A stretch of DNA of 64,000 nt, taken from contig NZ_CP015104.1 in assembly GCF_002214525.1 (NCBI RefSeq), forward strand, positions 682,001-746,000, given 5' to 3'. Shown here piece by piece: positions 21,215 to 33,698 of this stretch (position 1 is its first letter; each line of letters opens with the position of its first letter). A model generated the notes under the pieces. The model was not told the DNA's origin. It saw nothing but the letters and a program-made list of their open reading frames with translations, and searched no databases. Origin of the DNA: Thermococcus sp. P6. GTDB taxonomy: Archaea; Methanobacteriota_B; Thermococci; Thermococcales; Thermococcaceae. The translations under genes and the position numbers were made by a program.

Positions 21215-21273
21215 GGTTACCATCAAAAATTTAAGTAAACGGGAAGGGTTCACGATTTTTAATTCTTAATGGT

Positions 21274-21286
21274 AAAGTTTATAAGG
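21274..21286 (+). promoter_or_regulatory. TATA box for the secreted protein gene
   Basis: AAAGTTTATAAGG lies 31-43 bases ahead of ATG 21317. The flanking 50 bases are similar to those ahead of the second copy at 33.2 kb, so the promoter was duplicated together with the gene. Confidence 0.65.
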
Positions 21287-21316
21287 AATTATGAAGCAAT
21301 TGATATGGGTGTTGCC

Positions 21317-22774
21317 ATGAAAATCAAAAAACCCCTGCTGGTTCTTCTAACGTTGATCCTCATTGGAGGAACCATGGTGGGGGCTTTAAACTACACCACA
21401 AACAACAACGAAACGGTAGTCAAAATCTTCGGCTACAACGCTTACAGAATACACGGTTCAGGGCGTTACGTTATTTACTACCCCCTGCCCAACGGAAGCG
21501 TTAAAATCCTCAAAAGGGGGAAAGCCGGCTTCTTCCCGACCTTCGTCAAGGTACCCGAAGAGGAATGGGTTAAAGCCCTCTCAACCGGAGAAAAAGCCCT
21601 CTATGCTCCACCAACCCCCCTAATACTCTACGTTACTGAAGACGGAAAACTCGGAGTCAAAAGCCTGAGCACGAGCAGGGTGGAACTCGACGGGGAGAAC
21701 GCCCTCGACCTGAAAGGTGGAATTCAAACCACTGAATTAAAAACCGTAAGCGGAAAAGAAGCCGGAGTTCAAACGAGCCACTCGTGTCCAAACCAATGGA
21801 TAGACTTGGGGGGAAGGTACTGTCTCAACCCCCAGTGGGACCTCCAGTTCGACAGTACTGCAAAAGCAAAAACCTTCAACGAATGGATTTCAGTTGCGGG
21901 CTTGAAGGTGGAGAACAACGCCGCAGAAGAAGTGGATTTTGACTGGATACTCTACCTCACCAGGAGCACTTACAGTTACTGGACGGTTGGAATTGGGGTG
22001 GGGCCCTTCACGGTCCTCAGCGTGTCCAAAGGAAAACAATTCGACGGCTGGACACTTTATGTAGACTATCAATCGTTCCCTTACCTGACGGTTAATTCTG
22101 ATAACTGGGGGAGGTATCTAAACATTAAGGTGGAGTACATTGTAGCTCACGCCAAGGTTTCCGCTTACGACAAGTTGAGGGGTGACTACGTGGACATAGA
22201 CGTGGCTAAAGTGTACCCCATGAAAATCCACAGCACCGGAAAGTATAGGATACGTGAGTCCCCTACAAAGGGCACTTACTTCACGGAGGCAGACGGGGAC
22301 AACGCTCCGAGAATAACCACCACCCCCAGCATGTGGAGAATCCCGAATGATGCCGATTGGAAGAGGAAATGGTTAAACGCCGGAAGCTGGGAAACTGTTG
22401 TTGACATTTACCAAACCCAGGGCAGTAGTTTCTCTTCAAGCACCAGTCTGAGCATTCCGATTGGTTATGCGGGTGGGAAGTACCTCGCGAGTTTGAGCCC
22501 AACCCTCTCAAGAGTGGCCAACACCCTCAGTCTAACGGTCGGATTCCACACTTACACGGGTGCATTTTCATATGCAAAATACAGCGTTTATGTTAAGCCC
22601 AAGAAGGATTGTTATGGGATGTACAGTGTTTTTGGGGTTAATTGGGAGTTGACCGGGCCGGAGGTTAGTGTGCCGATGGTTTTCAGCGTTGTAACGGATG
22701 GTAAAGTTTCGTCCCCACCCTGCGATCCGAGGACCGGTACCTGCACAACCTCCGAAGAGACGGCAGAAGGTTGA
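21317..22774 (+). CDS. Secreted thermococcal protein of unknown function (full-length copy)
   Basis: 485 aa, not assigned to a named family. Residues 1-25 (MKIKKPLLVLLTLILIGGTM, then VGALNY) form a signal peptide or membrane anchor. Residues 30-135 form a first domain (VVKIFGYNAYRIHGSGRYVI, YYPLPNGSVKILKRGKAGFF, VPEEEWVKAL) shared with the short copy at 33.2 kb. Residues 155-470 are beta-rich, aromatic and Ser/Thr-rich, with Cys residues in SHSCPNQW, GRYCLNP, KKDCYG and the tail SPPCDPRTGTC that could form disulfides outside the cell. ATG 21317 is chosen because GGTGTT precedes it and the second copy starts at the same place; an earlier ATG at 21305 is possible. Confidence 0.8.
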   Translation: MKIKKPLLVLLTLILIGGTMVGALNYTTNNNETVVKIFGYNAYRIHGSGRYVIYYPLPNGSVKILKRGKAGFFPTFVKVPEEEWVKALSTGEKALYAPPTPLILYVTEDGKLGVKSLSTSRVELDGENALDLKGGIQTTELKTVSGKEAGVQTSHSCPNQWIDLGGRYCLNPQWDLQFDSTAKAKTFNEWISVAGLKVENNAAEEVDFDWILYLTRSTYSYWTVGIGVGPFTVLSVSKGKQFDGWTLYVDYQSFPYLTVNSDNWGRYLNIKVEYIVAHAKVSAYDKLRGDYVDIDVAKVYPMKIHSTGKYRIRESPTKGTYFTEADGDNAPRITTTPSMWRIPNDADWKRKWLNAGSWETVVDIYQTQGSSFSSSTSLSIPIGYAGGKYLASLSPTLSRVANTLSLTVGFHTYTGAFSYAKYSVYVKPKKDCYGMYSVFGVNWELTGPEVSVPMVFSVVTDGKVSSPPCDPRTGTCTTSEETAEG

Positions 22775-22843
22775 AGGGCTACAAGAACCGTCGTGTTCTC
22801 AGGAATTGGTTCCTGGTTTTCTACCATTAAAATTTTTGATTCT

Positions 22844-22866
22844 CCAAACCCCCGGGAAAGGTTTGG
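22844..22866. repeat. 7-bp inverted repeat upstream of the molybdopterin oxidoreductase
   Basis: CCAAACC (22844-22850) and GGTTTGG (22860-22866) are separated by nine bases. It lies just before the TATA-like CGTTTTAAAC (about 22882-22891), so it could be an operator as well as a terminator of the secreted protein gene. Confidence 0.45.
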
Positions 22867-22921
22867 ATAAAGGGAAATAAACGTTTTAAACTTTCCTCGT
22901 TACATGCCCACAGGTGAGCCA

Positions 22922-24838
22922 ATGTTCAGCGTGTGTATGAGGGATTGTTATGACACATGTTCATTGATAAGCAGGTTTAAAGATGGGAAGCTTGTAGTAA
23001 AGGGAAACCCAGAGCACCCGATTACAGGAGGATTTCTCTGCCCGAAAGGAGCACTCCTTCCAAAGTGGTTTCACAGCGGAGATAGACTCAAGGTCCCTCT
23101 AATAAGGGCGGGAAAAAGAGGGGAACAAAATTTCAGGGAAACTTCCTGGGAAGAGGCCATTTCAATGGTGGCGGATAGGCTCAGGGAAACGATTAGGGAA
23201 CATGGAAGTGAGAGCGTTTTGGTGTACCAGTATTCGGGGGACAGGGGCATAATAAATTATTCCTTTCCGCTACGATTGTTCCATTATCTGAACGCATCCA
23301 TGCTTGACTATGGGATTTGTGACAGGGCGGGCCAAGAGGCTCTAAAGGATGTTTATGGCACTGCTGTTGGAGCCGACCCGGAGGCACTCAGGGATCAAAA
23401 ATTAATTGTTTACTGGGGCATAAACGCATTTTGGACCAACCTCCATGGATTTGTGCTTGCCGAAAAGCTTGGGCTTGAGAGATGGACGGTAGACGCTGTG
23501 AAAAGTGAAACTGCCAAGAGAAGCGATAAATTCTTTCAAATAAAACCCGGCACCGATGTTCTCTTTGCCCTCGGGATTGCAAAGCTTATAATAAAGAATG
23601 AGCTTTATGACGAAGAATTCATCCGGCAGACTACCTTCGGGTTTGAGAAATTCAGGGATTATGTGTCAAAGATTGAACTGGAGTTCGTGGCGAGTGAAAC
23701 AGGGATTAAAAAGAGCGAGATTGAGGAGTTCGCCTTTGAATACTCCGAGAAGAGGGGAGTGATCCATATAGGTTACGGTATGCAGCGCTCCCTTGCCGGA
23801 GGTGAAGCCGTGAGAGCAATCTCCCTCCTGCCAGCCCTCGTAGGGCACAGATTCGGCTTTATATATGATATGAAATCCATTGACAAGAGCTATGCCGAGG
23901 GGGCATTTCTAAGGAAGGGAAAGATTAAGCGGATTCCCCAGATGAAACTTGCGGAGTACATAGAAAAAGGGGATATCAAGTTCCTCTACATTTACAATGC
24001 GAACCCTCTGGCTTCTCTTCCAAATCAAAACCGGCTCAGAAAAGCATTTGAGGAAAGCGATGTCTTTGTTGTGGTTCACGATATATTCCTAACGGATACC
24101 GCTCTATTCGCGGATGTTGTTCTCCCGGCCAACACATTCTTCGAGCGCCTGGATATTGCCGATTCCTATTACCACCGCTACGTTGCCCTAAACGAGCCTG
24201 TGGGGCGATTGCATGGAAAGAGCAACTATGAGGTTACAAAAATGCTGGCGAGTGCCCTTGGGATTAAAAATCCCTATCTGTACGAGCCCGAGGAGGAGAT
24301 AATACGCAAAATCCTTGAGAAAAATGGCCTGAGCTTTGAGGAGCTTAAGAAAAAGGGGTTCATCCGGGTCTCTGAAGGCCCCCGTGGATACAGCACACCA
24401 AGCGGAAAAATTGAATTCTTCTCCCAAAGAGCCCTTGGGAGGGGTTTAAAACCTTTTCCTGAATACAAGCCCATGAAGGGAAAGGGGCTTCAGCTTTTAA
24501 GTCCTACCCACAGGATGACCATAACGAGCCAGTATCACAACACCTATGGAATGATTGATCCGGACCTCCATATGAACCCCGAGGATGGCGCGGTTAGAGG
24601 AATTGGCGATGGGGAGAGGGTCCAGGTTTACAACGAAAGGGGAGCCATTGAAACAAAGGTTAAACTTACAGAGGACGTTCCCCGGGGAGTCGTCGTGCTG
24701 TACAAAGCATTTTGGCCAAAAATCCTGGGCTGGAACGTCAACTTCCTCACGACCGATGAGGTTGATGAAGGATACGGGAACTCATCCGCATATCACTCCA
24801 CATGGGTGGAGGTTAGAAAAGCAGGCCGGGAAAAATAA
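22922..24838 (+). CDS. Molybdopterin (Mo/W-bis-PGD) oxidoreductase, [4Fe-4S]-containing
   Basis: 638 aa. Member of the DMSO reductase/formate dehydrogenase superfamily. The N-terminal cluster ligands are C5, C9, C13 and C40 (VCMRDCYDTCSL, then GGFLCPKG), with the electron-transfer Lys42. Cys133 in DYGICDRAG is at the likely position of the metal ligand. The C-terminal dinucleotide-binding domain (RMTITSQYHNTYG, MNPEDG, GIGDGERVQV) is complete. No electron-transfer subunit, membrane anchor or chaperone gene is adjacent, so the electron partner is unknown. The gene is visibly more AT-rich than its neighbours (ATT, AAA, GGA codons), suggesting acquisition. ATG 22922 follows CAGGTGAGCC; an upstream ATG at 22904 lacks a ribosome-binding site. 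Confidence 0.9.
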   Translation: MFSVCMRDCYDTCSLISRFKDGKLVVKGNPEHPITGGFLCPKGALLPKWFHSGDRLKVPLIRAGKRGEQNFRETSWEEAISMVADRLRETIREHGSESVLVYQYSGDRGIINYSFPLRLFHYLNASMLDYGICDRAGQEALKDVYGTAVGADPEALRDQKLIVYWGINAFWTNLHGFVLAEKLGLERWTVDAVKSETAKRSDKFFQIKPGTDVLFALGIAKLIIKNELYDEEFIRQTTFGFEKFRDYVSKIELEFVASETGIKKSEIEEFAFEYSEKRGVIHIGYGMQRSLAGGEAVRAISLLPALVGHRFGFIYDMKSIDKSYAEGAFLRKGKIKRIPQMKLAEYIEKGDIKFLYIYNANPLASLPNQNRLRKAFEESDVFVVVHDIFLTDTALFADVVLPANTFFERLDIADSYYHRYVALNEPVGRLHGKSNYEVTKMLASALGIKNPYLYEPEEEIIRKILEKNGLSFEELKKKGFIRVSEGPRGYSTPSGKIEFFSQRALGRGLKPFPEYKPMKGKGLQLLSPTHRMTITSQYHNTYGMIDPDLHMNPEDGAVRGIGDGERVQVYNERGAIETKVKLTEDVPRGVVVLYKAFWPKILGWNVNFLTTDEVDEGYGNSSAYHSTWVEVRKAGREK

Positions 24839-24924
24839 ACCCATTGGTTTTGATTCCTTGGGGGCAAACCGGAACGTGATTCCATAGAGGAGTGCATCAC
24901 TTTTCTGGGCTTTTTACGTTTTCC

Positions 24925-25455
24925 CTAAAACTTCACCCAGTTAACCTGATAATAGACCACGTCGTTGTCCTCGTCAACAACCGCCATCACCATGTTCTTC
25001 CTGACGCCGTGGGCCACCCTCACCCTTGCGGTGATGTCGTTGGGGGATATGCGGGCGTTCTCGGGGACGACCCAGACCAGCCACTGGGAGTGCTCCTCCA
25101 TCCCGCGCCTGTAAACCCGGAAGTGCGAACCGAACTTGAGGGCCGACTTGACGGTGTAGCCACGATCCCTCAGGTCCGTGTAAACGAGGAGCTTTATGTC
25201 GAACTGATCGTCCCTCTTCCTCCCGAGCTCCACCAGTTCCTCGAAGGAAAGCTCCTTCTTCCCCCTAAAAACCCTTATCCTTCCCTTTTTCAGAAGGTAG
25301 GCCGCCTCGATGAGCGAGAGGAAGAGCCTACCGTTTATCACCTCACCGAAGTAGCGTTTGTTGTAAAACCTGTTTATGGCCTTCTCCCCCTCGCTGAAGA
25401 CCCTGTCACCGCTCAGCTGAAAGGTTACGGGTTCCTTCAATCCATCCCACCCCAT
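24925..25455 (-). CDS. endA: tRNA-splicing endonuclease, homotetramer/homodimer-type subunit
   Basis: 176 aa. Cuts bulge-helix-bulge motifs in pre-tRNA introns and pre-rRNA stems, such as the one around the 23S gene in this window. N-terminal domain followed by the nuclease domain with GSHFRVYRRGMEEHSQWLVW. The predicted catalytic triad is Tyr115, His122 and Lys153 (VRKNMVMAV). The length of about 175 residues is that of the alpha4 class. ATG 25455 overlaps the end of rimI by 19 bases; TTG 25440 (LKEPVTFQLSGDRV) with GGTGGG upstream would match the family N-terminus better and is a real alternative. Confidence 0.93.
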   Translation of the reverse strand: MGWDGLKEPVTFQLSGDRVFSEGEKAINRFYNKRYFGEVINGRLFLSLIEAAYLLKKGRIRVFRGKKELSFEELVELGRKRDDQFDIKLLVYTDLRDRGYTVKSALKFGSHFRVYRRGMEEHSQWLVWVVPENARISPNDITARVRVAHGVRKNMVMAVVDEDNDVVYYQVNWVKF

Positions 25456-25937
25456 TCTTCGGCCGGCAGAAGCATGTAGTAAGCGTCCTCACCGTCAAGA
25501 TAGTAGCCGACTATACGCTTTATCTTCCTGAAGCCGAAGCGTTCGTAGAGCTTTATGGCACCCTCGTTGCTCACCCTGACCTCAAGACCTATGTAGCGGG
25601 CACCCTTCTTTATGAGCCTTTCGATGGCCTCCTCGAGCAGGGCCGAACCCACGCCGTTTCCCCTGTAGGCGGGATCAACGGCGATGCTCATTATGTGCCC
25701 CTCGAGGTCGGGCCGCAGGTAGCCCATCACGTAGCCGATTATCTTACCGGAGTACTCGGCCACGAGAAAGGTGTCCGGGTTGTTCTCGAGGAAAACGAGG
25801 AACACTCCACGGGGGTACTCCTCACGGAAGGATTGCCTCTCGATCCTCACGACTTCCGGGATATCGAAGAGTTTTGCCGGCCTTATAACGACCATCGCCA
25901 GTGGAATCCGGGAAGGTTTCCTGAGGGACGTGCTCAT
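25437..25937 (-). CDS. rimI: RimI/Ard1-type N-terminal acetyltransferase (GNAT)
   Basis: 166 aa. GNAT-fold acetyltransferase that acetylates protein N-termini; archaeal members act broadly rather than only on ribosomal protein S18. Acetyl-CoA binding motif A is MSIAVDPAYRGNGVGSALLE, preceded by VAEYSGKIIGYVMGYLRP and followed by EVRVSNEGAIKLYERFGF. ATG 25937 lies 23-30 bases after a TATA box (CCTTAAAAG, 25959-25967 on the minus strand) and has no clear ribosome-binding site, which fits a leaderless message. ATG 25895 (MVVIRPAKLFD) is an alternative. It is co-transcribed with endA through a 19-base overlap. Confidence 0.9.
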   Translation of the reverse strand: MSTSLRKPSRIPLAMVVIRPAKLFDIPEVVRIERQSFREEYPRGVFLVFLENNPDTFLVAEYSGKIIGYVMGYLRPDLEGHIMSIAVDPAYRGNGVGSALLEEAIERLIKKGARYIGLEVRVSNEGAIKLYERFGFRKIKRIVGYYLDGEDAYYMLLPAEEWGGMD

Positions 25938-26004
25938 GTTTTAAACTACCCCCAAGGGCTTTTAAGGATTGAGGGAGGACCGCGATAACCCCACTCCGCT
26001 GAGT

Positions 26005-26015
26005 AAAGTTTAAAA
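26005..26015 (+). promoter_or_regulatory. TATA box of the herA-mre11-rad50-nurA operon
   Basis: AAAGTTTAAAA lies 32-42 bases ahead of the herA ATG, which also has GGTGAT upstream. No other promoter is evident until the end of nurA. Confidence 0.65.
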
Positions 26016-26046
26016 TCCCCGGGGATAACAACCATCAGGTGATATC

Positions 26047-27798
26047 ATGCGTATAGCAGAGAGACCCGACGAGCCGGTCGGGATCGTGACCGGTGAAGCG
26101 ACCGTGAACTCCTTCCAGTTCTACGCCCGTCCCGATGCCGACCTCAGGTTCGGGGATTTTGTGGTTGCAAAGCTATGCAGGGAGACCCGGGATAGGGGGT
26201 GCAGGCTTGGAGAGAACGCGGAGTGGGTTCTTGGAACCATCAGGGGCATAAAGAACATCAACTGGCTCCTCAGCGAGGGAAAGAGCACCTTCGGGAGCCT
26301 TGATCTGGATCTGAGGGAGTACGGGGAGAGCATAGGAGAGAACGAGGCTTTGATAGTTACCGTTCATATTCTGGGGCGGATAAGCTTCGGAAAGAACGTT
26401 GAGATAGTCCCCAGCCGCGTGCCCGTTCCGAACGGGAACGGCGTCTACAGAGCCAGCACGGAACTCCTCAGGGCCCTCTACCGCGGAGGCGAGGGGTTCA
26501 TTGAGCTGGGGACGCTCCTCCTGCGGGAAGACGTGCCCGTATACCTGAACGTTGACGAGCTGATTTCGAGGCACTTCGCAATTCTGGCGGTTACAGGAGC
26601 CGGCAAGAGCAACACCGTCTCCGTTATGCTCGGGGGGCTGATAGAGAAGCTGAGGGGAACCGTGGTGGTGCTCGATCCCCACGGCGATTACGTGAACCTG
26701 AGCCTCCCGGAGACAGGCACCGATTACGTTAACCTCATAGAGGCAAAGATCCGGCCGGAAGATATGGACGGCGAGGAACTGGCCGACCTCATGGGAATAG
26801 GAAAGAACGCCCCCATACAGCGCTCCTACCTCATACGTGCATGGGACACCGTCCTTCACGAGAACCCCGGTTTAGGCGGGAGGGAAGCCATAAATGCCAC
26901 CCTGAAGGTCCTTCGAGACTGGATCTCCAAAGGCGAGGGCAGGTACTGGGACCCGCACTCCAATGAATACTCCGAGGTGGAAGAGATAAAGGCGGACGAG
27001 AAAAAGACCATAATGAGGCTGACGATGAGGATATCCCGCTTCATGAGGAACTACGGCCACCTGCTCTCAAGCGAGGACATGGTGGCATCGATCGAGGCCG
27101 GAAAGGTGAACGTCATAGACCTCGGACCGCTGGACGAGAACCAGATGAAGCTCGTCGCATCGAAGCTCCTTGAAAAGATCTTCGAAAAAAGGATGGACTA
27201 CGAGAAGGCAAAGAAGAGGCTCGAACACCTGAGGAACAGACCCGGAAATCCGGAAGAGGTGAAGGAACTCGAGGAGGTCATCCGCTCGGTGGAGGCATCC
27301 TATCCAGCCCTTTCCGAGCCATTACTTGTGGTGGTTGAGGAGGCCCACATATTCGCACCCAACAATGAGGGGGGCGAGGTCGTCAGGGTCCTCGGCAGGA
27401 TAGCGAGGGAAGGGAGGAAGTTCGGCGTCGGACTTGGTCTCGTGTCCCAGAGGCCGAGCAGGCTCAGCGAAGACGTCCTCAGCCAGACGAACACGAAGAT
27501 AATCATGCGCATAGTCAACCCGAGGGATCAGAACTACGTCATAGCGGCCAGCGAACAGCTGAGCGGTGAACTGATGGAGGACATCGCGGGCCTTGGAAAG
27601 GGCGAGGCCGTCGTGGTGGGGCAGGCGATAAGCCTTCCGGCACTGGTGAAGATCCACGACTTCAAGGCACTGGGAGGCAACTACGGTGGAGAGGACATAG
27701 GCGTCGTGAAGCGCTGGAAGGCGAGGCTGGAGCGCGAAAGGACCGAAAGGGAAAAGAGAGAGCTCTACGAAGAGGCCGGAGTGGAGGTAGACTTCTGA
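26047..27798 (+). CDS. herA: DNA double-strand break repair helicase HerA
   Basis: 583 aa. Hexameric bidirectional DNA translocase of the FtsK/HerA family that works with NurA in 5'-end resection. The N-terminal HAS-barrel domain covers residues 1-140. Walker A is AVTGAGKSN at about 181-189 and Walker B is [11 protein letters not shown] at about 424-434, with the sensor/arginine-finger segment [20 protein letters not shown]. The C-terminal [18 protein letters not shown] tail is basic and helical. First gene of the herA-mre11-rad50-nurA operon; its TGA overlaps the mre11 ATG (TGATG). Confidence 0.97.
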
Positions 27799-29102
27799 TG
27801 AAGTTCGCCCACATCGCAGACGTTCACCTCGGCTTCGAGCAGTACCGCCTCCCCTACAGGGCCCGGGAGTTCGCCAGATCCTTCGAGGAGGCCGTTGACA
27901 GGTCCATAGAGGAAGGGGTGGACTTTATACTCATAGTCGGTGACCTCTTCCACTCGAGCAGGCCCAGTCCCGGGACGATACAGGAGGCCTTAGAGGTGCT
28001 TGAAAAGCCGAAGAAGGCAGGGATACCCGTCTTCGCCATAGAGGGAAACCACGACAGGACCCAGAGGAAGGTGTCCGCCTACAACCTCCTCGAGAGGCTC
28101 GGCCTCCTCCACCTAATCGGCCTGAGGGATGAAAGGGTGGAGAACGACTTCCTGACGAGCGAGAGACTTGGAAGCAAATACCTCGTCAGGGGAACCGTCG
28201 AGACCGGAAGGAGAAGCGTTGAAATCCACGGAATAAAATACATGAGCGCCGCGTGGTTCGAGAAGAACAAACTAACGGAAATATTCAAACCGGAAGGAGA
28301 CGCCATCCTGATGCTCCATCAGGGGATAAAGGAGCTCGTGGAGAAGATGGCCGGGATCATCCCCGATAGCCAGCGCGACTACTTCGAACTGAGGATGAAG
28401 GACCTTCCCAAGGGGTACCGCTACTACGCCCTCGGCCACATCCACAGGGAGTTCGTCACGAGCTACGACATCGGAACGCTGGTCTATCCGGGCTCGCTCC
28501 AGCGCTGGGACTTCGGGGACTACGAGGTTCGCTACCGCTGGAACGGGAGGAGCTTTATTCCGGAGGCCGGCACAAGAAAGGGTTTCTACATCGTCGAAGA
28601 TTTCAAACCGAGGTTCGTCGAGCTTAAGGTGAGGCCCTTCGTGGACATCAAACTCAAAGCCGACGAGGAGACCGCCATAAGGGAACTGCAGCGCCTGAGG
28701 GAGAAGATACCGCGCGAGGCCTTCGTGAGGCTTGATATAAGCTGGGAAAAACCCTACGACGTTTCGGGTTTCCGGAGGATACTCGAGGTGGAACACCTCT
28801 ACGTAAGAGCACGCTTTGAGGGCAAGAAGGGAGTGCCCGGGAGTGGAGGCCTACCTGAACCCGGGAAGTACTTCACCCCCGTGGAACTGAAGACGATAAG
28901 GCTGGCAGGAGAAAAGGACTTCAACGAGGTCGATGCCGTGATCGAGCTCTTCCTGAAGGGCGAAGAGGAGACGGAACCAACGCTTACGGATGAAAAATCG
29001 GCTATAAAAGTAGAGCCAGTGGAGAGGGTAAAACCGGAGGGACCAAAACCCAAAAAGCCCTCAAACATTCTCGCGTGGATCGGTGGTGGAGATGAAGATT
29101 GA
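27798..29102 (+). CDS. mre11: DNA double-strand break repair nuclease Mre11
   Basis: 434 aa. Mn-dependent 3'-5' exonuclease and ssDNA endonuclease that forms the resection complex with Rad50. Phosphodiesterase motifs are all present: DVH (D8, H10), GDLFH (D49), GNHDR (N84, H85), LHQG, and GHIHRE. The numbering of the first five ligands is the same as that known for P. furiosus Mre11. The C-terminal 100 residues hold the Rad50-binding helices and a charged low-complexity tail. It overlaps herA by one base and rad50 by 11 bases. Confidence 0.97.
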   Translation: MKFAHIADVHLGFEQYRLPYRAREFARSFEEAVDRSIEEGVDFILIVGDLFHSSRPSPGTIQEALEVLEKPKKAGIPVFAIEGNHDRTQRKVSAYNLLERLGLLHLIGLRDERVENDFLTSERLGSKYLVRGTVETGRRSVEIHGIKYMSAAWFEKNKLTEIFKPEGDAILMLHQGIKELVEKMAGIIPDSQRDYFELRMKDLPKGYRYYALGHIHREFVTSYDIGTLVYPGSLQRWDFGDYEVRYRWNGRSFIPEAGTRKGFYIVEDFKPRFVELKVRPFVDIKLKADEETAIRELQRLREKIPREAFVRLDISWEKPYDVSGFRRILEVEHLYVRARFEGKKGVPGSGGLPEPGKYFTPVELKTIRLAGEKDFNEVDAVIELFLKGEEETEPTLTDEKSAIKVEPVERVKPEGPKPKKPSNILAWIGGGDED

Positions 29103-31749
29103 GAAGCTCATCGTGGCCGATTTCCGATCTCACCGGTTAACTCAGGTCGAGTTCAAGGACGGGATAAACCTGATAATCGGCCAGAACGGAAGCGGTAAGA
29201 GCTCCCTCCTCGACGCGCTCCTCATCGGCCTCTACTGGCCCAGCAGACCGAAGGACCTGAGGAAGGGGGACTTTCTCAGGATAGGAGGGAACTCCACGGA
29301 GATAACCGTCTACTTCGAGAAGGAAGGCGTTAGGTATCAGGTCCATAGAAAAATAACGAAGGGCGTGGCCTTTGCGAAGTATCACGACGGAACGTCGTGG
29401 AAGCACGTTTCCGAGACCAGCCATAAGACCGTAAGGGACTGGATGGAAAAGCTCATCCCGTACGATGTTTTTCTCAACGCCATTTACATAAGGCAGGGCG
29501 AAATCGATGCGATCCTCGAGAGCGACGAGAGCAGGGAGAAGGTGGTGAGGCAGGTTCTCGGCCTTGACAGGTACGAAAACGCCTACAACAACCTCCTCGA
29601 AGTGAGGAAGGAGATAGACAGAAGGATAAAATCGACGGAGGAGTTCCTGAAAAGGACGGAGAACATCGACGAACTCATCAGGGATATGGAGAAAAAACTC
29701 GAGAAGACCCTCAAGGAGATAAAGGAACTCTCCAGAAGGATTCCGGAGCTGGAGAAAGAGCTGAAGGAGGCGAGAGAAAAGCTCAACCACCTCAAGGAGC
29801 TTAAGGGAAAGATCGATAGCCTCAGGCTCGAGATCAAGGAAAGTGAAGGAAGGAAGGAAGCCCTCAAGAGCAAGCTGGCCGAACTCGAGAAACGCATCTC
29901 CGAGGGCGAGAAAAAGGTGAAAGAGCTGGAGGAGAAGGTTAAGGAGCTAAAGGGACTTAAGGAACGGAGCGAGCAGTACCTAAATCTATTGAAATTCAGA
30001 GGGTACTACGTGGAGGAGAGGGGAAAAAACGAAGGGCTGGCCGGGAAATACAGGACGGGAATAGAGGAGATCGAAAAACGCCTCGCCGAGCTGGAGAAGG
30101 TTGAAAAGCAGCTCGCCGGGATGAAGAAGAAGGCCGACGAGCTCAGGAAAAAGTTGAGGGAGCTGGAGGAGGAAGCCAAAAGGTATGAGAAGGTTAAAAC
30201 CCTGCTGAAACAGCTAAAAGACCAGAGAAATCGCCTGAAGTACTCCGAGGAAGAAATAGCGAATCTTTCCTCCAGAATCGAGGAAGCAAAAGCCCGGAGG
30301 GAGGAGATTCTGGAGGAACTTCAGAAGATACAGGGGGAACTCGGCGGGCTCAAGAACCTCATAGGTGAGAGGAACAGGGCGATAAAGGAGCTGGAGGGGG
30401 CAACGGGCAGGTGTCCCGTCTGCGGCAGGGAGCTGACGGAGGAACACCGGAATGAGATAATCGAAAGGTACAGAAGGGAGGTTTTAGAAGCCTCCGGGGA
30501 AGTTAAGAGGCTCAAGGAGAGGAAAGAAGACCTGAACAGAGAACTCCGGGAAATAACAGAGATTCTGAAGGGGGAGCGGGAACTCACGGAGCAGAAGACG
30601 ATACTCGAGGATATCAAAAGGCTCGAGGGGGAGCTGAAGAAATACAACGTCGAAGAACTGCGTAGAAAAGGGAAGGAATACGAGAAGAGCAGGGAAGACC
30701 TGAACAGGCTTGAGGGCGAGCTAAAGAGCATGGAAAATGAGCTTAAAAAGAGGGAAGAGCTCGAAAACAGGAAAAAAGACCTCGAGGAGAAGCTCAGGTC
30801 CGTGGAGCTCCGGCTGAAGGAACTCGATAAAGAGCTCCGGGAGAGGGGTTTCTCGAGCGTCGGGGAGCTCGATGCGAAGCTCGAAGAGCTCAAACCGTTC
30901 TACGAGAGGTACCTCCAGCTGAAGGGTTCGGAAGAGGAGCTCAAAAGGGAGCGGGAGAAACTGGAGGGGCTCCGGGGGGAGCGCGAGGAGACGGAAAGAA
31001 ACCTCAAAGCAGAGGAAGAAAATCTGAAGGCGCTTAAGGAGGAACTAAAAGAGAAGGAAGCACTTTACAGCGAGGAAGAGCATAAAAGAACCGAAGAACT
31101 CGTCTATTCACTGGGTGAAGAGCTGGCAGGGATGAGGGCGAATCTAAAAGCCCTTTCAAAGGAGCGCGATGAACTCACGAACAACCTCGGTAGACTCAGG
31201 GAGGAGAAGGAACTCAGGATCAGAAAGAGGAAGGAACTGGAAGGTCTCAGGAAAGCCCGCGAAGATGTTCAGAAGCTGAGGGAAAAGCTAAAGCGCTACA
31301 AGGCCATGCTGAGGGAGAACGCCCTCTCAAAGGTCGGCGAGCTGGCAAGCGAGATATTCGAGGAACTCACGGAGGAGAAGTATTCGGGGATAACCGTCAG
31401 GGCCGAGGAGAAGAAGGTAAGACTCGGGGTGGTGTACGACGGCAGAGAGTACGGCCTCGGTTTCCTCAGCGGTGGGGAGAGGATAGCCCTTGGTCTGGCC
31501 TTCAGGCTCGCACTGTCCCTCTATCTGGCGGGGGAGATAAGCCTGCTGATTCTGGACGAACCGACGCCCTACCTCGACGAGGAGAGGAGGAGAAGGCTCG
31601 TTGACATAATGCAGCGCTATTTAAGGAAGATCCCTCAGGTGATAGTCGTTTCCCACGACGAAGAACTGAAGGACGCTGCGGACAGGGTGATAAGGGTTAG
31701 CCTCGAGAACGGCGTATCAAGGGTCGAAGAGGTAAGGATGGAGGTGTGA
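29092..31749 (+). CDS. rad50: DNA double-strand break repair ATPase Rad50
   Basis: 885 aa. SMC-like ABC ATPase that tethers and processes DNA ends with Mre11. Walker A GQNGSGKS at residues 30-37, then about 270 residues of coiled coil. The zinc hook is CPVC at 441-444 ([14 protein letters not shown]), at the middle of the protein, followed by the returning coiled coil. Signature motif [19 protein letters not shown] near 791, Walker [15 protein letters not shown] and H-loop VVSHDEE complete the ATPase. The start is ATG 29092, with GGTGGTGGAG directly upstream. The repetitive look of 29.6-31.3 kb is coiled-coil coding bias, not a DNA repeat. Confidence 0.98.
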
Positions 31750-31751
31750 GG

Positions 31752-33074
31752 ATGTACAGGCTCATGGACAGGGGGAGCGTTGACAGGATAAAGAGGATGC
31801 TCCTGAAGGGCTACAACATGGCTCGGGAGAGTCTAAAGGCCATAGAGTGGAGGGAACTTCCGGAAAGGAGGAAGAGCAGGGTCTACGCCATCGACGGGAG
31901 TCAGGGAAAGCAGAGGCTCAGCGGAACGATTATTTACGCGGTCTCGAGCTACGCCTTCGGCAACGGGGCACCCTACAGACTGGTCCACACCAACGCCATG
32001 CTCTACAATCAGGGCATATCCGACCAGATAATCCGCCTCCAGATGGAGACCCTCGAAAACAAACTCGGCTTTCTGGCCGGAAAGATCGGGAAAGTGGATT
32101 ACGTGATGATGGACGGAACCCTTACCGGCTCGCTCACGAGGCCACCCGTGTATCCGGAGAGCGTGAAGGGACTGACCACCATAGAGACGGTTCTGGGAAG
32201 TGAAGCCCTTGAGGAGCTCGTGGAGAGGTTCGTCGGGATGCTCGACGAGCATTACAGGGAACTTGAAGAAAGACTCCGAAAGGGGGAGCGGGTGAACAAC
32301 GGGGTCGTTCTGGCTGACGAAAAGCTCGAGGAGTTTTCCGGGTTCTACGAAGCCATGGAAGGGTCCACCGTAAGGGATTTTTCGGGGAGCATCAGGATCG
32401 ATAGGAAGACCCTCGAAAGCTACAGGGATAGCGGGATGAGCGCGGGGGAGATGATCGAAAAGCTGTTGAGCGAGTACGGGGAAGGGCGGGAGCTGGGCCT
32501 CGATGACGCGAGGAACGCCGTCCACGTCGTCCTCGGTTATCTGGAGTACCTCTACTCCCTCGAGAGGCTCCTCGGGAACGGGGAGTTCGATCTCGTCTAC
32601 GTCGCCAAGAGCTTCTACAACAGGAAGCTGACCCAGAAACTCGGCCTGGACATCGTTGACGTGCCCTATCTGGACGCTTACCTGAGGAAGGCCTACGGCG
32701 AGGAAAGGCCCGGCTACTACGTGATAACGCAGGGAACGAAGATAAGCCACAGAATGCCAAGGGTCCTCAGGAAACGGTTCCCGGCCGTTAAGAACACCAT
32801 GGAAAGGGGCGTTCCCATGGCCTACATCCGGACGATGAAGGGGGGCGTCATATACCTCCTACAGAGCAACCGCGAGATAGACGACGACCTCCTGTCGGCT
32901 CTCCTGTGGCACGAGAGAAACGGCTATTTCAGGCCCCTCCAGAGGGCCCACGAGGGTGTGAAGATCGAGAGGAAAACCTTTGAGGCTGAACTTGGGGCAC
33001 TGCTCAACACGATAAAGGCAGAGAACCCGGAGCTCAGGGTTTTCCTGAAGTACGGGAGAAGCCCGCTGGAGTGA
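31752..33074 (+). CDS. nurA: 5'-3' nuclease NurA
   Basis: 440 aa. Partner nuclease of HerA in DNA end resection. The NurA catalytic core begins with [15 protein letters not shown] (Asp48 in the DGS motif) and continues with [14 protein letters not shown] and late acidic/aromatic motifs near [20 protein letters not shown] 31752 follows the rad50 stop after two bases, with GAGGTGTGAGG as ribosome-binding site; an overlapping GTG at 31746 is less likely. Last gene of the four-gene operon; a short T-run near 33099 may terminate it. Confidence 0.95.
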
Positions 33075-33160
33075 CCCCGGGAGAGAAGCCTTTCCTCTTT
33101 TTAACCTCAGGAGTTCAGGTAAACCGGAAGGGCCCACGATTTATCAATCTTCAATAGTAA

Positions 33161-33171
33161 ATTTTATAAAC
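33161..33171 (+). promoter_or_regulatory. TATA box for the truncated secreted protein copy
   Basis: ATTTTATAAAC lies 30-40 bases ahead of ATG 33201. The surrounding 55 bases align with 21234-21290 ahead of the full-length copy (shared core AGTAAAC/CGGAAGGG...CACGATTT). Confidence 0.6.
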
Positions 33172-33200
33172 TATTCAACGGAATTAATATGGGGATAGCT

Positions 33201-33605
33201 ATGAAATTTAAAAAACCCCTGATGGTGGTCCTAACGCTGGCCCTCATAGGAGGGGCCGTACTGGGAGCTCTGAACTACGTGGCGGACAACGACGAAGAGG
33301 TAGTCAAAATCTTTGGCTACAACGTGTACAAAATACACGGATCCGGTAACTACACCATCTACTACCCCCTGCCCAACGGAAGCGTTAAAGTCCTCAAAAG
33401 GGGGAAAGTCGGCTTCTTCCCGGTGTTCGTGAAGGTACCCGAAGAGGAATGGGAGAAAGTGGCGGGGGGAGATGGCCTCTTTGCAGCGCCGACTCCAATG
33501 ATGCTCTACGTTACCGAGGACGGAAGATTCGGAATCACAAGCCTGAGCGCGAGCAGGGTAGAACTCGGCGAGCAGCCAGCTCTCGATCTAAAAAATGAAA
33601 CCTGA
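33201..33605 (+). CDS. Short paralog of the secreted protein (internal deletion copy)
   Basis: 134 aa. Signal peptide MKFKKPLMVVLTLALIGGAV plus the first domain of the 485-aa protein at 21.3 kb: KIFGYNVYKIHGSGNYTIYY, PLPNGSVKVLKRGKVGFFPV, FVKVPEEEWEK and SRVELGEQPALDLK align residue by residue. It stops at TGA 33603-33605. Directly after, 33606-33623 is identical to 22743-22760 at the extreme 3' end of the long copy, but two bases out of frame. It therefore looks like a duplicate that lost the central ~1 kb and acquired a frameshift at the scar. The remaining domain is intact and may still be exported. Function unknown. Confidence 0.8.
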   Translation: MKFKKPLMVVLTLALIGGAVLGALNYVADNDEEVVKIFGYNVYKIHGSGNYTIYYPLPNGSVKVLKRGKVGFFPVFVKVPEEEWEKVAGGDGLFAAPTPMMLYVTEDGRFGITSLSASRVELGEQPALDLKNET

Positions 33606-33640
33606 GCACAACCTCCGAAGAGAAATCCGAAAGCTGAAGG
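33606..33640 (+). pseudogene. Remnant of the 3' end of the secreted protein gene
   Basis: Eighteen bases (33606-33623) match 22743-22760 exactly, and the following bases match partly up to the old stop. Read in its own frame it gives STTSEEKSES then stop, against TTSEETAEG then stop in the long copy. It is separated from the preceding reading frame by a two-base difference. Confidence 0.7.
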
Positions 33641-33698
33641 GGTTTTTCCTTTTTAAATCCCTCAACCCGAAAGGTTTAAACGACTGGACAAATAATCC

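Follow-up and report, generated by a model that had tools for sequence, protein, structure and literature searches.

The window, the 64,000-nucleotide stretch of Thermococcus sp. P6 DNA that was analysed, contains two related genes on its forward strand, and all features described here lie on that strand. The longer gene (21317–22774; in-frame ATG also at 21305) was identified by ORF reading and codes for a protein of 485 amino acids with a predicted signal peptide. It is located after the KBL gene at a position designated site A. A TATA-like element, GGTAAAGTTTATAA, was read directly at 21271–21284 and is the putative promoter; the element recurs (AGTAAATTTTATAA) ahead of the copies in the genomes G007, G046, G047, and G050. 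Full-length homologues of the long protein in relatives share 58–72% identity with it. The N-terminal hydrophobic helix, and this feature only, suggests that the long protein and its family are secreted. Neither Pfam nor NCBIfam nor the PDB yielded a relative of the family, and no toxin-like family or fold was found for the long protein in these databases or by fold comparison of its front domain. The AF2 model of the whole protein, computed from a six-row alignment, is poor (pLDDT 38.6). A sortase-type reading of the CxPRTGxC end was considered and rejected, because neither a hydrophobic segment nor a basic tail follows this motif.

A molybdopterin-oxidoreductase-like gene (22904–24838 of the window) lies directly 3' of the long gene at site A. 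Its GC3 is 0.53, compared to 0.75–0.80 in its neighbours. It is missing from the corresponding place in the relatives compared, and is therefore likely a lineage-specific insertion.

The short gene (33201–33605; in-frame ATG also at 33189), recognized by ORF reading, alignment, and tree, is located 12 kb from the long gene and codes for a front domain of 134 residues with a predicted signal peptide. Its product is 70% identical to residues 1–133 of the long protein (the front domain, 21317–21715), and the DNA of this domain is 78% identical. The initial annotation had recognized this homology and had put its extent at about 140 rather than 133 residues. It had also noted a promoter match of about 55 bp, which turned out to be longer: about 85 bp upstream of the short gene (33119–33203) are homologous to 21235–21319, with identity in 60 of 86 aligned columns. 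Within this region, the TATA-like element of the short gene (33156–33169) pairs with that of the long gene at 21271–21284.

Behind the short ORF, the junction of a deletion and a relic of the 3' end of the long gene are found at 33600–33642. This stretch aligns with 22739–22779 in 34 of 41 bases plus a 2-nt AG gap; up to the stop codon, the long and the short gene read ACCTG--CACAACCTCCGAAGAGACGGCAGAAGGTTGA and ACCTGAGCACAACCTCCGAAGAGAAATCCGAAAGCTGA, respectively. The local alignment score is 24, compared to a maximum of 16 among about 500 random segments of the window. The exact 18-mer repeat that had been reported at 22743–22760 and 33606–33623 was found again and has no other exact copy in the single-contig 1.52-Mb genome; with up to three mismatches allowed, these are the only two matches in the window, where 0.04 would be expected by chance. 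Read in the frame of the long gene, the tail of the short copy gives TCTTSEEKSES*, which aligns with TCTTSEETAEG* of the long protein; the two stop codons therefore correspond to each other. The frameshift scar that had been proposed is present as the 2-nt AG difference, which creates a TGA at 33603–33605 and thus a stop at the junction. Its effect is small, because the short ORF would be only about 11 codons longer without AG. Aligned with each other, the two units are hence homologous in the upstream region, the front domain, and the 3' tail. Both ends of the parental gene are present in the short copy and its centre is missing, the arrangement left by an internal deletion. The missing segment comprises codons ~134–474 of the long gene (21716–22738, ~1,023 bp) and includes the region that, according to mosaic analysis, family members exchange (about residues 231–430).

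AF2 modelling of the short protein gave a moderate mean pLDDT of 62 (72–83 in the core), and the front domain is predicted to be a small beta-rich domain following the signal helix. A Foldseek search with this model gave no match at E ≤ 0.001; the only matches were weak ones to Ig-like folds (best E 0.013, TM below 0.4).

Occurrence and genomic sites of the family

Members of the family were found in 35 of the 115 genomes of a phylum sample, which all belong to one taxonomic family and represent five of its genera. Named records holding relatives are all from Thermococcus. The search of this group, which had been suggested by the initial annotation, yielded full-length homologues, and broken copies were common, but no short-only copy turned up in the 93 further genomes of that taxonomic family. 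The deletion scenario therefore withstands the refuting condition that the initial annotation had set, a conserved family of short-only copies in many genomes. Weak hits in three genomes had been considered as short-only candidates; those in G009 and G011 are an unrelated small lipoprotein, and the one in G012 is an apparently non-coding frame. No match to the family was found in plasmids, phages, or viral contigs, and carriage by mobile elements was dismissed on these grounds.

In many close relatives, the family gene occupies one of two sites. Site A follows the KBL gene and precedes a tRNA-endonuclease/GNAT pair; it harbours the long gene of P6 and the copies of G046, G047, G050, and G128. 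Site B lies between the genes for a FecCD-type ABC ATPase and the proteasome beta subunit, and is occupied in G034, G001, G012, G040, G024, and G004 and by the second copy of G046. In the latter genome both sites are therefore filled, with copies about 13 kb apart, the second of which is frameshifted. In the P6 window and in G046, sites A and B are separated by the HerA-Mre11-Rad50-NurA genes. They were not found between the two sites in the loci L037, L038, L041, and L042 (G034, G001, G024, and G004, respectively), where sites A and B are therefore close together. The short copy of P6 is situated near site B, but beyond the ABC genes as seen from there; it is flanked by NurA and the permease gene, and no other genome examined shows a copy at this position. 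The place corresponding to that of the short copy is a gap of about 2 kb, reaching from the NurA or GNAT gene to the FecCD permease gene, in L032 (G046) and also in L038 and L039.

Descent of the short copy and selection on its front domain

In trees of the front domain, the short copy is the sister of the long copy of the same genome, with support values of 100/98 for protein and 100/99 for DNA. Its branch is about ninefold longer (0.44 versus 0.05). The placement indicates that the short copy descends from the lineage of the long gene, and is also compatible with the conversion of an older copy. Together with the tail remnant and the homology of promoter and front domain, it supports the initial proposal of a duplication followed by the loss of about 1 kb of the centre. 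That proposal needs to be amended in its detail: the short copy came from, or was converted by, the lineage of the long gene, and paired copies are not unique to P6.

Selective constraint was estimated by means of a purpose-written codon model. For the short branch, ω is 0.31, which is significantly lower than 1 (p = 0.011) and higher than the background value of 0.098 (p = 0.005). The constraint on this branch thus appears relaxed in comparison to the background. The value of 0.31 pertains to the whole branch and combines the periods before and after the deletion. The 31 changes in the mature domain of the short protein all spare the 12 positions that are invariant in the family (p = 0.011) and are concentrated at variable sites (p = 1e-4). 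Since ω is lower than 1 and the invariant positions are untouched, selection has acted on the front domain during a large part of the period following the split. A neutral-stop simulation added little information, with P about 0.08.

The identity between the untranslated tail of the short copy and the long gene is 83%, compared to 78% in the coding part, and exceeds the ~61% that neutral sites would show at such a divergence (p = 0.002). Conservation of the tail at the level of the coding DNA suggests a recent deletion, and the constraint on the front domain may therefore be largely older than the deletion. This dating is weak, because the tail comprises 41 nt only and the 18-mer was chosen for its match.

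Broken copies and segment exchange in the family

Decay has occurred repeatedly in this family. The genomes G046, G047, and G050 contain frameshifted copies, G002 has a degenerate one, and in G112 a more distant copy is split. In a relic of G107, the first ~79 residues and roughly residues 125–387 are gone; here the family has undergone an internal deletion independently of that in P6. At this locus (L096:5355-5745), a promoter-like element was observed, as well as residues ~80–125 fused to ~387–471, plus stop codons.

As judged from the sequences, the family, of which the long gene of P6 is an intact member, is a mosaic, with a near-fixed front and an exchangeable centre whose types are common to several genera. 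Exchange of the centre by recombination, both between species and between copies, was observed in relatives and not in P6. Same-genome pairs in G112 (L061/L099 and L100) and in G007 (L003/L031) are identical in DNA over the first ~230 residues and divergent thereafter. In segment 291–375, one copy of G112 groups with the site-B genes of G001 and G012 (support 100/100; 89% DNA identity), whereas the other is closest to the site-A copy of G046 (G046_A; 93%); G001, G012, and G046 belong to a different genus than G112. Trees in which the G112 pair was forced together in this segment were rejected (p-AU 3e-67), as were those forcing together the six site-B genes L005–L010 (p-AU 1e-62). For most pairs of site-B genes, DNA identity is 92–97% over residues 1–135 but 55–67% over residues 291–375, and in pairs such as G034/G040 it returns to 96% at the C-terminal end; the identity of the flanking genes in this comparison is 70 to 98%. 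Along the G034/G040 pair, synonymous divergence is first 0.14, then 1.25, and finally 0.21. Synonymous and protein divergence rise together, and the pattern is therefore due to the exchange of segments and not merely to fast protein evolution. Two secreted proteins of ~520 residues without a Pfam match (L105:8532-10103 and L028:1498-3033) agree with the family in a C-terminal stretch and carry the CxPRTGxC end as well; they likely belong with it to a wider superfamily.

Origin and fate of the short copy

The short gene is probably a truncated paralogue in decay. The promoter and gene of the long-gene lineage would have been copied as a unit into the gap between the genes for NurA and the FecCD-type permease or, as an alternative first step, an older second copy would have been overwritten by gene conversion. 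The copy would then have diverged faster than its source gene, and an internal deletion of about 1 kb would have placed the final ~11 codons directly behind the front domain, at a junction where the 2-nt shift stops translation. We infer this order of events, and the recency of the deletion, from the comparisons described above. It is plausible that frequent recombination within the genes of this family is a source of internal deletions. Decay is in agreement with the occurrence of the short-only form in one of 94 genomes and with the independent breakage of other copies; the intact short ORF, signal peptide, and promoter element argue against it. It is possible, albeit clearly less probable, that the short gene is functional and that its secreted or membrane-anchored front domain acts alone, for example on the same cell-surface partner, or pairs with the long protein. 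The ORF is still open and could yield a secreted front domain, the break coincides with the end of the predicted domain, and the significantly lowered ω as well as the avoidance of invariant and other conserved sites would fit such a role. However, the branch covers a probably long period as a full-length gene, as suggested by the conservation of the tail, ω is three times the background value, and none of the 93 other genomes searched has a gene for the front domain alone. Decay is preferred because the constraint need not postdate the deletion and tail conservation suggests a recent deletion.

A further interpretation dispenses with a new duplication at this position: the short copy would be an old site-B copy, and gene conversion from the long gene would have replaced its promoter and front domain prior to the deletion. 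The short copy is only two genes away from site B, G046 has copies near both sites, and the front halves of the same-genome copies are identical in G007 as well as in G112. Nevertheless, this course of events is rather unlikely, given that the NurA/permease position differs from site B and that the upstream DNA of the short copy resembles that of its own long gene. The least probable proposal by a wide margin is that of the initial annotation, which saw in the short protein a possible decoy, cap, or immunity partner; the long protein would be toxic in this case. The mosaic structure of the family, which is reminiscent of polymorphic-toxin or VARTIG proteins (PMC8416519), would be in line with this role. 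The sequence contains no toxin domain, however, and comparison of the several sites of the long gene reveals no conserved neighbour specific to it that could be a partner. Moreover, relatives with an intact long gene lack a short partner, the short form being present in one of 94 genomes and the long one in many, and the signal of purifying selection may for the most part predate the deletion.

Relation to known systems

Truncated paralogues that originate from internal deletions keep both parental ends, lose the centre, and evolve at an accelerated rate. The short copy resembles them, and pseudogenes, in all three respects; in contrast to a typical pseudogene of this kind, its ORF is still open and equipped with signal peptide and promoter element. 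Polymorphic toxin systems combine a conserved front with an exchangeable segment. The present family differs from them in that it has neither a toxin domain nor an adjacent immunity gene, and in that its variable part lies away from the extreme C-terminus.

The VARTIG module (arCOG07710/arCOG14200) is confined to Thermococcales and consists of secreted proteins with a segment that is variable due to inter-species recombination; pseudogene fragments occur among its copies (Makarova et al. 2021, PMC8416519). The arCOG07710 gene heads a putative operon of genes for small membrane proteins, and its product contains Ig-like (CARDB/E-set) domains and a C-terminal motif D[ND]NxxxG[GD], also given as DNNxxxGG (PMC8416519). 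The present family is likewise restricted to Thermococcales, predicted to be secreted, and broken in some copies, and in relatives contains a recombining variable segment. Unlike VARTIG, the ~485-residue gene is solitary and found at recurrent housekeeping sites next to KBL, tRNA-endonuclease, ABC, and proteasome genes. It also lacks the DNNxxxGG motif and ends in PCxPRTGxC instead, and the exchanged part is central (~290–375), with a C-terminal end that is often conserved again. For the Ig/CARDB domains of VARTIG, Pfam gave no match in the family; the model of the front domain matches Ig-like folds only weakly, and the rest is poorly modelled. In its sequence evolution, the family resembles a VARTIG-type variable surface protein, yet it is not classed as a member.

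It is conceivable, though unlikely, that these are undescribed solitary mosaic secreted proteins of Thermococcales serving in contact, recognition, or conflict between cells or with viruses, and that the short gene is a still-working derivative of the front domain that, for example, occupies the same anchor. Viewed in isolation, the truncated gene adds another to the known decaying paralogues, and its truncation looks like a case of ordinary gene decay. It leads, however, to a family that is absent from Pfam and NCBIfam and for which VARTIG, whose operon and C-terminal motif it lacks, is the one comparable system found described in these archaea. Its front is nearly fixed between species while its centre is traded even between genera, which is the pattern expected of a surface involved in recognition or conflict.
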